From NCBI GenBank assembly GCA_003017855.1, contig PYER01000040.1, positions 1 through 32,327 on the forward strand: a stretch of DNA of 32,327 nucleotides, given 5' to 3'. The DNA is from a filamentous cyanobacterium CCT1. GTDB lineage: Bacteria > Cyanobacteriota > Cyanobacteriia > Phormidesmidales > Phormidesmidaceae. Shown here piece by piece: positions 22,796 through 31,000 of the stretch. The notes under the pieces were generated by a model. That model was not told where the DNA came from and did no database searches. It worked only from the letters and a program-made list of their open reading frames with translations. A program made the position numbers and the translations under genes. How positions within the stretch are numbered: position 1 is the first letter of the stretch; each line of letters opens with the position of its first letter.

Positions 22796-24514
22796 TTAAT
22801 AGTGCGTGCCGGTATTGCGGTAGTGAACGGCAGTTTTACCCTCGCCGTCTAACACGCGACCGGCCTGTACGGTGGCATAGACCAGCCAGTGGTCGCCGCA
22901 CTCCATGCGCTGGTCTACAGTGCACTCCAGGTAGGCGATCGCATCGGTTAAAATTGGCGCACCGTTATCAGCAACGTCGGTGTCTATATTTGCAAACCGG
23001 TCTTCGCCAGGGGCAAAGGGCTTGAGAAAATGCTTCATTGGCCCCAGGTGCCGCCCCTCGGCCAGAATATTGAGCACAAAGGAGCTGCCAGGGTACAGCA
23101 GCGACTCGATTGCCCGATCTTTGGCCACCGCCACGGTAAACCCCGGTGGGGCAAAGGACGCCTGCGATACCCAGGAGGCCAGCATGGCGCTCGATACCTC
23201 TCCCTGGCGCGCCGTCACAATGCACAGCGACCCGACAATGCGTCCCACCGCCTGCTCTACTGCCGAGGCGGGGGGACGGGGCTGCTTGGCCCGCTTAGCT
23301 TTTTTGAGCGACTGAGCAAAGTCAGTCCCTACCTCTTCACAGTACTTAAGGGTGACATCGGTAGGCTTAAACTTGACTCGAATCGGGTCAAAGGCCAGGC
23401 TGTAGCCGCCGTCTTTGAGCTTGCCCTCCAGCAGATCGATCGCCTCACCACTCCAGCCAAAGGACCCGAACACCCCAGCCGGTTGCGCCTTCGAGGCCGT
23501 AGACAGCACGATGCCCAGGGCGGTCTGCATCGGGGTAGGGGCATGGCCGCCCAGGGTGGGCGACCCCATCAAAAATCCGGCCGAGGTTTCGACGGCGGCC
23601 TTAATATCGTCGGGGCTGGCCTGCTCGGCGTTAATCGACTCGACCGACACCCCCGCCTTGGTGATGCCCCGCGCCAGCGCCTGAGCAATGGTCGCGGTAT
23701 TGCCGTAGGCCGAGGCGTAGATCAGCGCCACCGAGAGCTCCTGGCTGGTTTGGGCCTGGGCCCAGTCGCGGTAGCTCTGCACCAGCTCTCGAGGCCCGTA
23801 GCGCACTACCGGCCCGTGGCCTGGAGCCAAAATTTGGTAAGGCAGCGAGGTCATTCGGCCCAGGGCCGACAGCACCTGGCGGGCGCTAGCGGCAAACAGA
23901 CAGTCAAAATAGTAGCGTCGGTCTTCTAGCAAATCCTGCCAGCTGAGGTCAAAGACGGCATCGTCGCAGCGGTGTGCCCCAAAAAACTTGTCTGAGTAAA
24001 GCACCCCAGAGTAAGGGTCGAAGGTCGCCAGACCGCCAGGATACCGTGGAGTGGGTATGAGCTCAAACTGGAGATGATGCCCCTGGCCCAGATCGAGGCG
24101 ATCGTCACCGCTGCGAATGATTCGCAGTCGGGGCGATATATCGGGCAGCAGATCCTTGAGGGCGAGCGCTGCAGGGTTTGAGCACACTACCGTCACATCT
24201 GGCAACCGCTTCAGCAGAATCTTTAAAGTTTCGGCGCGGTTTGGGTTGATGTGCCCTAAGACAATGTAATTAAGCTGGTAGAGGTCAATATGCCGCTCTA
24301 GCGCCGCCAGAAATATTTCGCTAAACGACTCACCGGGGGGGTCAATCAGCGCCACGCGATCGGCCTGGATGAGGTAACTATTCGCCGTGGTTCCTCGCTC
24401 TAAAGCGTACTCAATCTCAAATCGCAGGCGGTTCCAACTGCGGCAGCGCAGGACCGTAGTGCCGGCTGCCATAGCGTAAAGCTGAACATCGCGAGGAGGA
24501 GAAGTCATGGGCAA
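22796..24514 (-). CDS. flv1: Flavodiiron protein, Flv1-type, with C-terminal flavin reductase domain
   Basis: A 572-residue cyanobacterial (class C) flavodiiron protein: metallo-beta-lactamase-like domain (about 30-245), flavodoxin domain (about 261-400; FMN loop IYASAYGNTATIA) and NAD(P)H:flavin reductase domain (about 418-572). Such proteins reduce oxygen to water downstream of photosystem I, protecting it under fluctuating light. The diiron-site positions are altered. GHINPNR gives His88, Asn90 and Asn92 instead of H-x-E-x-D, and the next ligands are Arg157 (for His) and Lys176 (for Asp), with His233 kept. This basic pattern is that of Flv1/Flv2, which pair with a canonical Flv3/Flv4. No flv4 or sll0218-like gene is adjacent, so Flv1 is favoured over Flv2. 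It follows no operon here; menF lies 280 bases downstream. Confidence 0.9.
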   Translation of the reverse strand: MPMTSPPRDVQLYAMAAGTTVLRCRSWNRLRFEIEYALERGTTANSYLIQADRVALIDPPGESFSEIFLAALERHIDLYQLNYIVLGHINPNRAETLKILLKRLPDVTVVCSNPAALALKDLLPDISPRLRIIRSGDDRLDLGQGHHLQFELIPTPRYPGGLATFDPYSGVLYSDKFFGAHRCDDAVFDLSWQDLLEDRRYYFDCLFAASARQVLSALGRMTSLPYQILAPGHGPVVRYGPRELVQSYRDWAQAQTSQELSVALIYASAYGNTATIAQALARGITKAGVSVESINAEQASPDDIKAAVETSAGFLMGSPTLGGHAPTPMQTALGIVLSTASKAQPAGVFGSFGWSGEAIDLLEGKLKDGGYSLAFDPIRVKFKPTDVTLKYCEEVGTDFAQSLKKAKRAKQPRPPASAVEQAVGRIVGSLCIVTARQGEVSSAMLASWVSQASFAPPGFTVAVAKDRAIESLLYPGSSFVLNILAEGRHLGPMKHFLKPFAPGEDRFANIDTDVADNGAPILTDAIAYLECTVDQRMECGDHWLVYATVQAGRVLDGEGKTAVHYRNTGTHY

Positions 24515-27309: not shown

Positions 27310-28443
27310 GTGGCGCGATCGCACGGGGCCTGGCGCTGGCAGCGCAGGAGTTGGGCCGGGCTAGGGCTACTGGCCCTGGCCGCCTGTGCCCCTTTGTCTG
27401 AAGGGTTCGATCGCCCGTCGCAGCAGGCCACGACAATGCTACAGTTCATAAATCCTCAGCCCGTTGCCCTGGCCAGCGCCATGACTAGCCCCCTGCTCTT
27501 TGACACGGTGTCAGATTTTGCCGAAGGGGTGGCCCTGGTCCGTTCGAAATCACGCCTGGGCTACATCGATCGCGAGGGCAGGCTCAATATTCAAATTGCC
27601 GATGATAACGTCACTGTGGCCGCTGACTACGCCGAGGGGCTGGCGGTAGCCCAGGTGGGAGCCTTCTTTGGCTACCTTGACCGACAGGGAGAGTGGGCTA
27701 TACCGGTGCAGTTTCGCCAGGCTAAGTCCTTTTCAGAAGGGCTGGCAGCAGTGCAGGGGGGCACCAAATACGGCTACATCAACCCCCAGGGCGATTGGGT
27801 TATTGAGCCCCAGTTTGACCTGGCCGAGCGGTTTGTCAGCGGTCGCGCCCTGGTCAAACTGGGAGATGCCTACGGCTATATCGACACTGACGGTCGCCCC
27901 GCCATCCCGCCGACGCTTAAGGATGCCTGGAGTTTTTCTGAGTCGCTGGCAGTGGCCAGGCTAGATCGGCTCTACGGCTATATTGACCCGAACGGCACTA
28001 TGGCTATTGCCCCCAGCTACGATGGCGCCTTTAGCTTTTCTGAGGGGCTGGCTCGGGTGCGCCAGGGCCGCAACTTTGGCTTTGTCGACGCCACTGGAGC
28101 CACGGTAATTGAGCCAAGGTTTCCCTTTGCCTCTGATTTTGCTGAGGGGCTGGCTGCCGTGCTGATCGACAGCCAGTGGGGATACGTGGACCGCACAGGT
28201 GAGGTGGCTATTGCGCCTCAATTTGCCTACGCGGCTGACTTTTCAGAGGGTTTGGCTGCTGTGCAGCAAGCCGGGCGCTACGGCTACATTAACCCCGAGG
28301 GAGACTGGGTCGTAGAACCTCAATACAGCAACGCCGGGCCATTTTCTGAGGGGCGGGCACGGGTGCAGGTTGACAACGGCTGGGGGTTTATTGATACCGA
28401 GGGCAACCTGCTCACCGGGGCGGGGTTTCAGCCTGTGGAGTAA
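27310..28443 (+). CDS. WG-repeat lipoprotein
   Basis: A 377-residue protein with a lipoprotein signal peptide: basic N-terminus, hydrophobic core, and lipobox LAAC with lipidated Cys26. The mature part is built from nine WG-type repeats of about 38 residues. Each repeat has an FSEGLAxV-like segment, then GYI/GFV, then a G-x-W/x-x-I-x-P strand end (examples GYINPQGDWVIEP, GFVDATGATVIEP, GYINPEGDWVVEP). WG repeats form a beta-rich scaffold in diverse bacteria; no enzyme role is known to me. It is probably anchored at the outer face of a membrane. Start GTG at 27310 is chosen because it gives a proper signal peptide. It converges on the hydrolase gene with 21 bases between. Confidence 0.92.
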   Translation: MARSHGAWRWQRRSWAGLGLLALAACAPLSEGFDRPSQQATTMLQFINPQPVALASAMTSPLLFDTVSDFAEGVALVRSKSRLGYIDREGRLNIQIADDNVTVAADYAEGLAVAQVGAFFGYLDRQGEWAIPVQFRQAKSFSEGLAAVQGGTKYGYINPQGDWVIEPQFDLAERFVSGRALVKLGDAYGYIDTDGRPAIPPTLKDAWSFSESLAVARLDRLYGYIDPNGTMAIAPSYDGAFSFSEGLARVRQGRNFGFVDATGATVIEPRFPFASDFAEGLAAVLIDSQWGYVDRTGEVAIAPQFAYAADFSEGLAAVQQAGRYGYINPEGDWVVEPQYSNAGPFSEGRARVQVDNGWGFIDTEGNLLTGAGFQPVE

Positions 28444-28464: not shown

Positions 28465-29355
28465 CTATGCGGTCAGGTCGCTCAGATACTGCTGAATTAA
28501 ACCAATCGTGACCCCAGGCTGCTCAAGCTGAGGGGTGAGCCCGACTCCAGGCAGTACCTCAAAGCGACGAATGGCGGCGGGGTTGAGAGCAGCCAGACGA
28601 CGGCCAGTTTCCACAGGGGTGAGCTGGGCCATTTCGCCCCAGATCAGGGCGGTGGGAGTTGTGAGCCGAGACAGATAGGGGGCCAGATCAAAGCTCAGAT
28701 CGCCCCGCACAAAGGCCAGGGCGGCGACATCGGCATTAGGCTGCTGAGCCGAGGCCAGGTAGGCCGCCACTATCTCGTCGGCAATTTTGCTGGGATCGGC
28801 AAACTGGCGCTGGACCAAAAACAACCGAATGCCCTCGCTGGTGGCGATCGCCCCCCGGTAGAGCAACTGATCAACTACGGGCAGCTTGACGATCTGGTTG
28901 ACGACCGAGCCGCTGGGGTCCTGACCAAAGTCGGCCAGCCCCGCCGGAGCCACCAAGACTAGCCCTCGCAGGCGATCGGGGTAGTCAACGGCGACCCGCA
29001 CCACCATGGCGGCACTGAGGGAAGAGGCAATTACAACAGGCGGAGCCGGGCAGAGCCTGTCGATCAGCTGACTCAGCAGGGCGAGGTAGTCGGCGGTGGT
29101 GCAGGGACGATCGGGGTGGTCAGAGTAACCCCAGCCAATGAGATCTGGGGCCAGTATCGGGTGCTCGGTCGCAAAGGCTGGGTACACCTTCGACCATTCG
29201 TAGCTGGATGACCCGCCGCCAAACCCATGAATAAACAGCAGCGGCACCGAGTTGGGCGGTGGCCCAGGCCAAAAGTCAGGATCGGCCTCAACATAGGCCA
29301 CTGTGCCCTGGTCGAGAACCAGCGATCGCTGTAAAAAACCGGGAGGAATGAGCAT
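28465..29355 (-). CDS. Alpha/beta-hydrolase-fold protein with altered catalytic triad
   Basis: A 296-residue alpha/beta-hydrolase fold. The oxyanion-hole segment FIHGFGGGSSSYEW (about 41-54), APDLIGWGYSD (69-79) and the nucleophile elbow ASSLS with Ser112 (110-114) are in place. But the acid position in the usual WGxxD segment reads WGEMAQLTP, so Ala243 replaces Asp. The His position reads GVGLTPQLEQP, so Leu273 replaces His in the common GxGHxPxxE motif. It may therefore be a non-catalytic member or use other residues. The start is ATG at 29355. It is transcribed away from a membrane protein gene across about 296 bases and converges on the WG-repeat gene. The fold is certain and the activity doubtful. 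Confidence 0.9.
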   Translation of the reverse strand: MLIPPGFLQRSLVLDQGTVAYVEADPDFWPGPPPNSVPLLFIHGFGGGSSSYEWSKVYPAFATEHPILAPDLIGWGYSDHPDRPCTTADYLALLSQLIDRLCPAPPVVIASSLSAAMVVRVAVDYPDRLRGLVLVAPAGLADFGQDPSGSVVNQIVKLPVVDQLLYRGAIATSEGIRLFLVQRQFADPSKIADEIVAAYLASAQQPNADVAALAFVRGDLSFDLAPYLSRLTTPTALIWGEMAQLTPVETGRRLAALNPAAIRRFEVLPGVGLTPQLEQPGVTIGLIQQYLSDLTA

Positions 29356-30286: not shown

Positions 30287-31000
30287 CTAACGAAAGGCGT
30301 CGGGGTCGAGGGACCGACCGGCGGGGCTGCCGCCGTTGAGACGAGCGCCAGTGCCACCATCGGCAGGGTCGAGAAAAGGTTTGAGGTTGATGCCGTTGGT
30401 GGGGCTGCTAGAGGAAGCTGCGCCGGGCAGCCCCAGGACGCTGCCGATTTGGCCCAGTATGTCGCTGTTGCCACCCGCAAAGGTGGTTACCCCCTGGGTT
30501 TGGTCGCCCCGATCGGCAATGGTCAGGTTGTCAAACACGCGATCGCGGGTGACGGCCGCATCCTGCCCAGGCGGGACGGTGAAGACGATGCGGCAGCCCG
30601 GCACGTTTTCGGTGGTGACACAAACGGTGTTGTAACCATTTTCAACGGCGGTCTCCAGGGCCAGCAGGCCGTCTGGGCGGTACTGCTCTAAGCGATCGCT
30701 AATAGTGGCACAGCGGCGCTCGGCTGGCCAGGTGCTACCCATGTCCTCGGGCACGGCCCAGGGGTAGGCCTGCCCCGGCTGACTGGTGGGCGAATACATG
30801 ACGGTGTACCGTCCATCCTGGATCTGACAGGTAAAGCGAGGCGCAGTATCGGCCTCGGCAGGTTCGGCTGGAGCGTTCTCAGGCGTTCCCTCAGTTTCTG
30901 TCTGAGCCTCGCTTGGTGCCCCCAGCGGCCCCAGAAATAGCGTGGTGGCTAACCCACCCATAAGTAACGTTGCGAACGTGCCGGTCGTAGAACGGGCCAT
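30287..31000 (-). CDS. COP23-domain secreted protein
   Basis: A 237-residue exported protein of the cyanobacterial COP23 family, named after a circadian-oscillating 23-kDa membrane-associated protein of Cyanothece; the biochemical function is unknown. It has a signal peptide (about 1-32, ending SEA), an acidic Pro/Glu-rich stretch, then the conserved domain: RFTCQIQDGRYTVMY with Cys58, WPAERRCATIS with Cys97, NGYNTVCVT with Cys127 and VPGCRIVFTVPPG with Cys136. Four cysteines suggest two disulfides in the periplasm. A Ser/Gly/Asp-rich tail follows. ATG 31000 lies just before the signal peptide. It is transcribed divergently from the AMIN-domain gene. Whether this copy is clock-controlled cannot be read from the sequence. 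Confidence 0.88.
   Translation of the reverse strand: MARSTTGTFATLLMGGLATTLFLGPLGAPSEAQTETEGTPENAPAEPAEADTAPRFTCQIQDGRYTVMYSPTSQPGQAYPWAVPEDMGSTWPAERRCATISDRLEQYRPDGLLALETAVENGYNTVCVTTENVPGCRIVFTVPPGQDAAVTRDRVFDNLTIADRGDQTQGVTTFAGGNSDILGQIGSVLGLPGAASSSSPTNGINLKPFLDPADGGTGARLNGGSPAGRSLDPDAFR

Follow-up and report, generated by a model that had tools for sequence, protein, structure and literature searches.

Conversion of the catalytic residues in a hydrolase-like gene

Which function is left to a protein of the alpha/beta-hydrolase fold once the acid and the histidine of its catalytic triad are gone? The question is raised by a gene in the window, a stretch of 32,327 nucleotides that constitutes contig C386 of the Nodosilinea-like genome (6.85 Mb) of the filamentous cyanobacterium CCT1. 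Its open reading frame starts with ATG, runs from position 29355 to 28465 on the minus strand and encodes 296 amino acids (28465..29355). The product matched the Pfam families Abhydrolase_1 (PF00561, E 9.3e-19) and Abhydrolase_6 (PF12697, E 1.9e-18); 18 NCBIfam models also matched it, none of them above its own cut-off. The nearest named relatives are from Nodosilinea sp. LEGE 06152 and from an unclassified filamentous cyanobacterium, with 89% identity each.

An earlier note on this DNA had described a retained Ser112, an alanine (Ala243) where the triad acid is expected and a leucine (Leu273) where the histidine is expected. Alignment with intact relatives and the strands of the predicted structure bore out all three residues; what the note did not give is the strand, which is the minus strand for the gene and for every codon named here. 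Ser112, in the nucleophile elbow (ASSLS), is encoded by TCC at 29020..29022, Ala243 by GCC at 28627..28629, and Leu273 by CTC at 28537..28539. The yardstick was a set of 15 more distant matches (26–34% identity), drawn from the same genomes or related ones; in 14 of them, the expected columns hold Ser, Asp, and His. In the alignment with the intact relatives, residue 243 corresponds to the Asp of WGxxDPW, and residue 273 to the His of GHCPQDE. The exception, L152, had been picked as an intact relative and contains Asn243 and no His.

Of what makes a competent serine hydrolase, the window protein retains the elbow serine and lacks the acid after strand 7 and the histidine after strand 8. Loss of both acid and base removes the classical acyl-enzyme mechanism of the fold, and, judging from its sequence, the window protein presumably does not split esters in this way.

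The predicted fold is complete

The input to the AlphaFold2 prediction was the window protein aligned with 70 related loci (out of 80; 10 near-duplicates were dropped by hand), and the resulting model had a mean pLDDT of 89.9 and a pTM of 0.90. Its least sure stretch comprises residues 141–170, with block means from 54 to 72. Ser112 follows strand 107–111 and opens helix 112–124, residue 243 follows strand 235–240, and residue 273 follows strand 262–268. According to the model, the three residues occupy the canonical triad positions of the fold, which rules out misalignment as the origin of the apparent loss.

When the model was compared with solved structures using VIA-align (Foldseek was also run), the best match was CarC (Z 31.4, rmsd 2.0 over 252 residues), followed by DxnB2 (Z 31.3) and haloalkane dehalogenases (Z 28 to 31); all 1000 of the 1000 chains compared scored Z >= 8. 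CarC and DxnB2, both meta-cleavage-product hydrolases, and the haloalkane dehalogenase DhaA share the whole fold including the cap and are among the best structure or sequence matches. All three are active enzymes with complete triads. An Asp nucleophile of the haloalkane dehalogenase/epoxide hydrolase type does not occur in the family, in which all 192 rows have either Ser or Ala at position 112. Among the best 60 of 315 sequence matches to solved structures, no close relative was seen, the best one reaching E 3.9e-17 over 108 of 299 profile positions. By its model, the window protein is a member of the superfamily with the whole alpha/beta-hydrolase fold; fold matches alone, however, do not indicate a function.

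Loss of the acid and the histidine is family-wide

The first set of homologues comprised 149 of 150 matches, all at E < 1e-40, which were aligned with the window protein; the remaining match, L113, lay beyond the cut-off and served as an intact relative. Addition of 42 homologues from the phylum search and from later loci resulted in 192 family rows. These hold duplicates (the window gene occurs twice, and some genomes are present as two records), leaving 171 distinct rows. Neither Asp243 nor His273 was present in any of the 192 rows, or of the 171 distinct ones. Position 243 was Ser in 132 rows, Ala in 55, Thr in two, Asn in two, and Cys in one; position 273 was Leu in 149, Val in 26, Phe in 11, Ile in two, Gly, Met, and Ala in one each, with one gap. 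The nucleophile position was more constant, with Ser in 174 and Ala in 18 rows (154 and 17, respectively, of the distinct ones). Among the 32 rows at least 75% identical to the window protein (duplicates included), Ser112 and Leu273 were present in all 32 and Ala243 in 31. The window copy is therefore not a lone mutant, a possibility that the earlier note had left to a survey of orthologs.

Across the phylum sample, a threshold of E 1e-30 gave matches in 95 of 386 genomes, two of the matches being of the distant type represented by L195 and L196. In the genus designated g47, which we term Nostoc-like because a Nostoc punctiforme primer matches in its genomes (see below), the family was recovered at E 1e-60 from all 53 genomes, albeit from two as fragments only. 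As far as the sampled sequences go, the family is widespread in cyanobacteria and the loss of the triad is family-wide.

The host genome itself contains three paralogues, the window gene on C386 and one each on C417 and C408, and in addition an intact relative on C459. The C417 paralogue (L111) carries Ala instead of the nucleophile Ser, and Phe273; among the same-genus copies of its clade, Ala112 is present in 11 of 11 and Phe273 in 10 of 11. Of 26 same-genus genomes, 18 (the host among them) contain the clade of the window gene; the other eight, several of which are incomplete, yielded no copy of it. The window copy is therefore apparently not indispensable.

A single loss on the tree followed by purifying selection

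A quick tree without bootstrap, in which long branches were flagged, was calculated from 115 rows (114 of the 207 aligned rows plus L218) and rooted on the intact relatives. The 98 family rows formed one clade (support 99), next to a small sister group of L152, L195, and L196 (support 83), whereas the 14 intact relatives fell on the other side (support 98). The members of the sister group, one of them from another class of the phylum, are ∼31–32% identical, contain Asn243 and lack His273. On this tree, a single loss each of Asp243 and His273, in the stem shared by the family and its sister group, was sufficient, whereas residue 112 changed three times. As the sister group also lacks both residues, their loss may be older than the family.

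Selection was quantified for 18 same-genus orthologues (153 pairs). Median dN was 0.137 and median dS 0.846; dN/dS had a median of 0.156 and a maximum of 0.24. Leu273 was encoded by five different codons in these orthologues and Ala243 by three, with Ser at this position in one orthologue. The low dN/dS and the exchange of synonymous codons at Leu273 speak against decay and support the notion, put forward in the earlier note, that selection maintains the protein; a pseudogene was ruled out on the basis of the median ratio. None of the 18 same-genus copies contained an internal stop codon within the match.

Residues fixed in the family

Several residues are conserved throughout the family and rare or absent in the 14 intact relatives (counted over 190 rows, that is, the 192 without L195 and L196). 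Residue 142 was acidic in 190 of 190 rows (Asp in 178, Glu in 12) compared with 0 of 14 intact relatives; in the window protein, it is Asp142 (28930..28932). Asp223 (28687..28689) was present in all 190 rows and absent from the 14 intact relatives, and Glu53 (29197..29199) was present in all 190 and in only one of the 14. Ser55 (189 of 190) and His80 (183 of 190) also belong to this group.

The window protein contains three histidines, at positions 43, 65, and 80, of which His43 and His80 are conserved; all 15 yardstick relatives likewise have His43, and His80 lies, in the model, in the loop after strand 67–70. The family alignment contained no new conserved histidine at the expected places. 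As for the earlier note's concern that another residue could complete the site, no replacement His was thus apparent at the level of sequence. The HGF oxyanion motif is retained in most family members.

The putative lipase of Nostoc very probably belongs to the family

One protein of interest in this context is Npun_F5141 (written Npun_R5141 in one place), a 310-amino-acid alpha/beta hydrolase from lipid droplets of N. punctiforme, whose orthologues all begin at its Met13 (available sections of PMC4500132, which also print the PCR primers for the gene). Extra copies of the gene alone left the proportions of fatty acids and alkanes as in the wild type under normal light; an effect was seen when they were combined with alkane-synthesis genes and, to a slight extent, in high light. 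In the combination, the fatty acids C16:0 and C18:0 and total alkane increased, and heptadecane was raised further. A lipase role was postulated, the rise of saturated fatty acids being read as support, and a CFP fusion of the protein localized to the cell periphery (PMC4500132). No enzyme assay of Npun_F5141 appears in the available sections of that paper. The word "catalytic" is absent from the main text of PMC4500132 and PMC7660261, as is "catalytic triad" from the available text of further papers naming the protein, and papers and reviews label it lipase, putative lipase, or lipase candidate in the parts available.

The printed primers were used to link Npun_F5141 to the family. When up to one mismatch was allowed, the upstream primer had a match in 42 of 53 g47 genomes, whereas a control with the reversed pattern matched in 0 of 53. 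In 42 of 42 matching genomes, the primer site shares its contig and strand with a family gene, which it precedes by 394–781 bases (distances were determined for 47 family places in g47, best-scoring clade only). The downstream primer matched with at most two mismatches in one of the 53 genomes, G466, and with at most five mismatches in none of the 17 loci containing the upstream primer, many of which are short. In G466, the two primer sites (zero and two mismatches, respectively) enclose 1449 bases, in which the only ORF of more than 100 amino acids is a family member. It comprises 308 residues from the likely upstream Met; the family start corresponds to its Met11, leaving a core of 298 residues, which equals the 310 residues of Npun_F5141 minus 12. 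The translated G466 counterpart contains Ser112, Ser243, and Leu273. Npun_F5141 is therefore very probably a member of the family, judged by primers and translations, and very probably lacks a classical triad as well. With a core of about 298 amino acids, it belongs by the primer test to the same family as the window protein, but on the tree it falls into the clade of the host's C417 paralogue, from which that of the window copy is separate. The location and role of the window protein are therefore inferred across paralogues.

Another cyanobacterial protein, alr1709/sll0553, is named as a cyanoglobule protein in the available part of PMC12923008; it could belong with the intact relatives.

A candidate lipid-binding role and its rivals

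Retention of the fold under purifying selection points to a binding role, and, together with the finding of Npun_F5141 in lipid droplets, most likely to that of a lipid-binding scaffold or regulator. We consider it somewhat probable that an ancestor shared by all members lost the catalytic Asp and His a single time, that selection then retained the family, and that it represents conserved, non-hydrolytic proteins of the alpha/beta-hydrolase fold, most likely lipid-binding regulators or scaffolds at membranes or droplets. The non-hydrolytic role proposed in the earlier note is, from the family-wide loss of the triad and the purifying selection, probably right. The pocket under the cap would bind a hydrophobic molecule, such as a fatty acid, an acyl chain, an alkane, or a pigment, and the protein would serve, at membranes or on lipid droplets, as a partner that binds, scaffolds, or regulates. 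Its mode would resemble that of ABHD5/CGI-58, which lacks the serine and regulates a lipase without hydrolyzing anything itself. ABHD5 has the same fold and is a non-hydrolytic, droplet-linked, ligand-binding regulator of lipolysis (PMC5314347, available part); it is, however, an animal protein that lost the Ser, whereas the window family lost Asp and His, and by this analogy it can be taken as a functional precedent only, not as a relative. That the proteins are ancient cyanobacterial regulators of lipid droplets or membranes built on a dead hydrolase, a counterpart of ABHD5 in principle, with at most three paralogues per genome, and that the Nostoc "lipase" binds and channels lipids without splitting them, is a more tentative idea, which we rather doubt. 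Counted against a regulator of lipid droplets were the failure to find the window clade in eight of 26 same-genus genomes, the peripheral localization of the CFP fusion, and the published reading as a lipase.

Against any non-hydrolytic reading stands the fact that Ser112 and the HGF motif are mostly kept, as if chemistry remained. The active site could have been rewired, with Ser112 still active, the acid supplied by Asp/Glu142 (or by Asp223 or Glu53), and another base, resulting in slow hydrolysis, acyl transfer, or a lyase reaction. The strict acidity of residue 142, which is confined to the family and includes an exchange of Asp for Glu as in real catalytic acids, would fit such a site, as would the 174 of 192 rows with Ser112; furthermore, many alpha/beta-hydrolase clusters have the acid shifted to strand 6 (PMC11878206, available part). 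Asp142, however, does not directly follow strand 131–135 but lies in the loop seven residues past its end, where the model is least sure. The sequences offer no His as a substitute: the conserved ones are limited to His80 and His43, and the latter is shared with all yardstick relatives. Moreover, the replacement of Ser112 by Ala in 18 rows, with three changes on the tree, speaks against Ser still being used as the nucleophile, and we regard a rewired site as unlikely. A true, unconventional lipase, with which Npun_F5141 and its relatives would free fatty acids in the living cell, in line with the proposal of its discoverers, appears quite improbable. The increase of C16:0, C18:0, and total alkane in the presence of extra alkane-synthesis genes would agree with it, but fits a regulator or carrier equally well, extra copies of the gene alone had no such effect under normal light, and Asp and His are gone from all 192 rows. 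Least credible of all, and hardly to be entertained, is a relaxed, functionless paralogue heading for loss. The missing catalytic residues, the same-genus clade that also lacks Ser112 in 11 of 11 copies, and the patchy occurrence of the window clade would suit such a state; it is contradicted by a dN/dS of ∼0.16 and the synonymous codon turnover at Leu273, as well as by 18 copies free of stops within the match and by the presence of the family in every g47 genome, be it in two as fragments only.

Conserved alpha/beta-hydrolase families without catalytic residues have been described before, namely DUF687, DUF3530, and Arb2 (PMC11878206, available part), which are other Pfam families than Abhydrolase_1/6 matched by the window protein. 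Among the literature matches listed (titles and beginnings of abstracts), no printed report of a triad-less cyanobacterial family was present. The window family, whose link to lipid droplets and alkane production can be tested, is a further, well-conserved cyanobacterial case. It is also a clear one, in that a hydrolase fold lost its catalytic pair once, is conserved in many cyanobacteria, and has fixed new residues. A gene used to increase alkane output in cyanobacteria goes by lipase or putative lipase in reviews, whereas the catalytic acid and His are very probably missing from its family. Should the protein be a carrier or regulator, engineering by the principle "more lipase, more free fatty acid" would build on a mistaken mechanism.

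Gene neighborhood

A WG-repeat gene (27310-28443, plus strand) is convergent with the hydrolase-like gene and ends close to its 3′ end; upstream, on the same strand, lies a gene for the circadian oscillating protein COP23 (30287-31000, minus strand). Both neighbors recur in 31 loci of the window clade (duplicates included), in seven of which the WG-repeat ORF abuts or overlaps the end of the hydrolase-like gene. Other clades of the family have different neighbors. No operon partner was found. In another clade (L021, L023, L048-L110), a convergent DUF4330 gene (29 of 149 loci) and a divergent gene of 200 amino acids without a Pfam match (46 of 149) were often observed. Elsewhere in the window (22796-24514, minus strand), a protein of the flavodiiron type is encoded, which combines an ODP beta-lactamase-like domain, a flavodoxin domain, and a C-terminal flavin-reductase domain; flavodiiron proteins are common in cyanobacteria.
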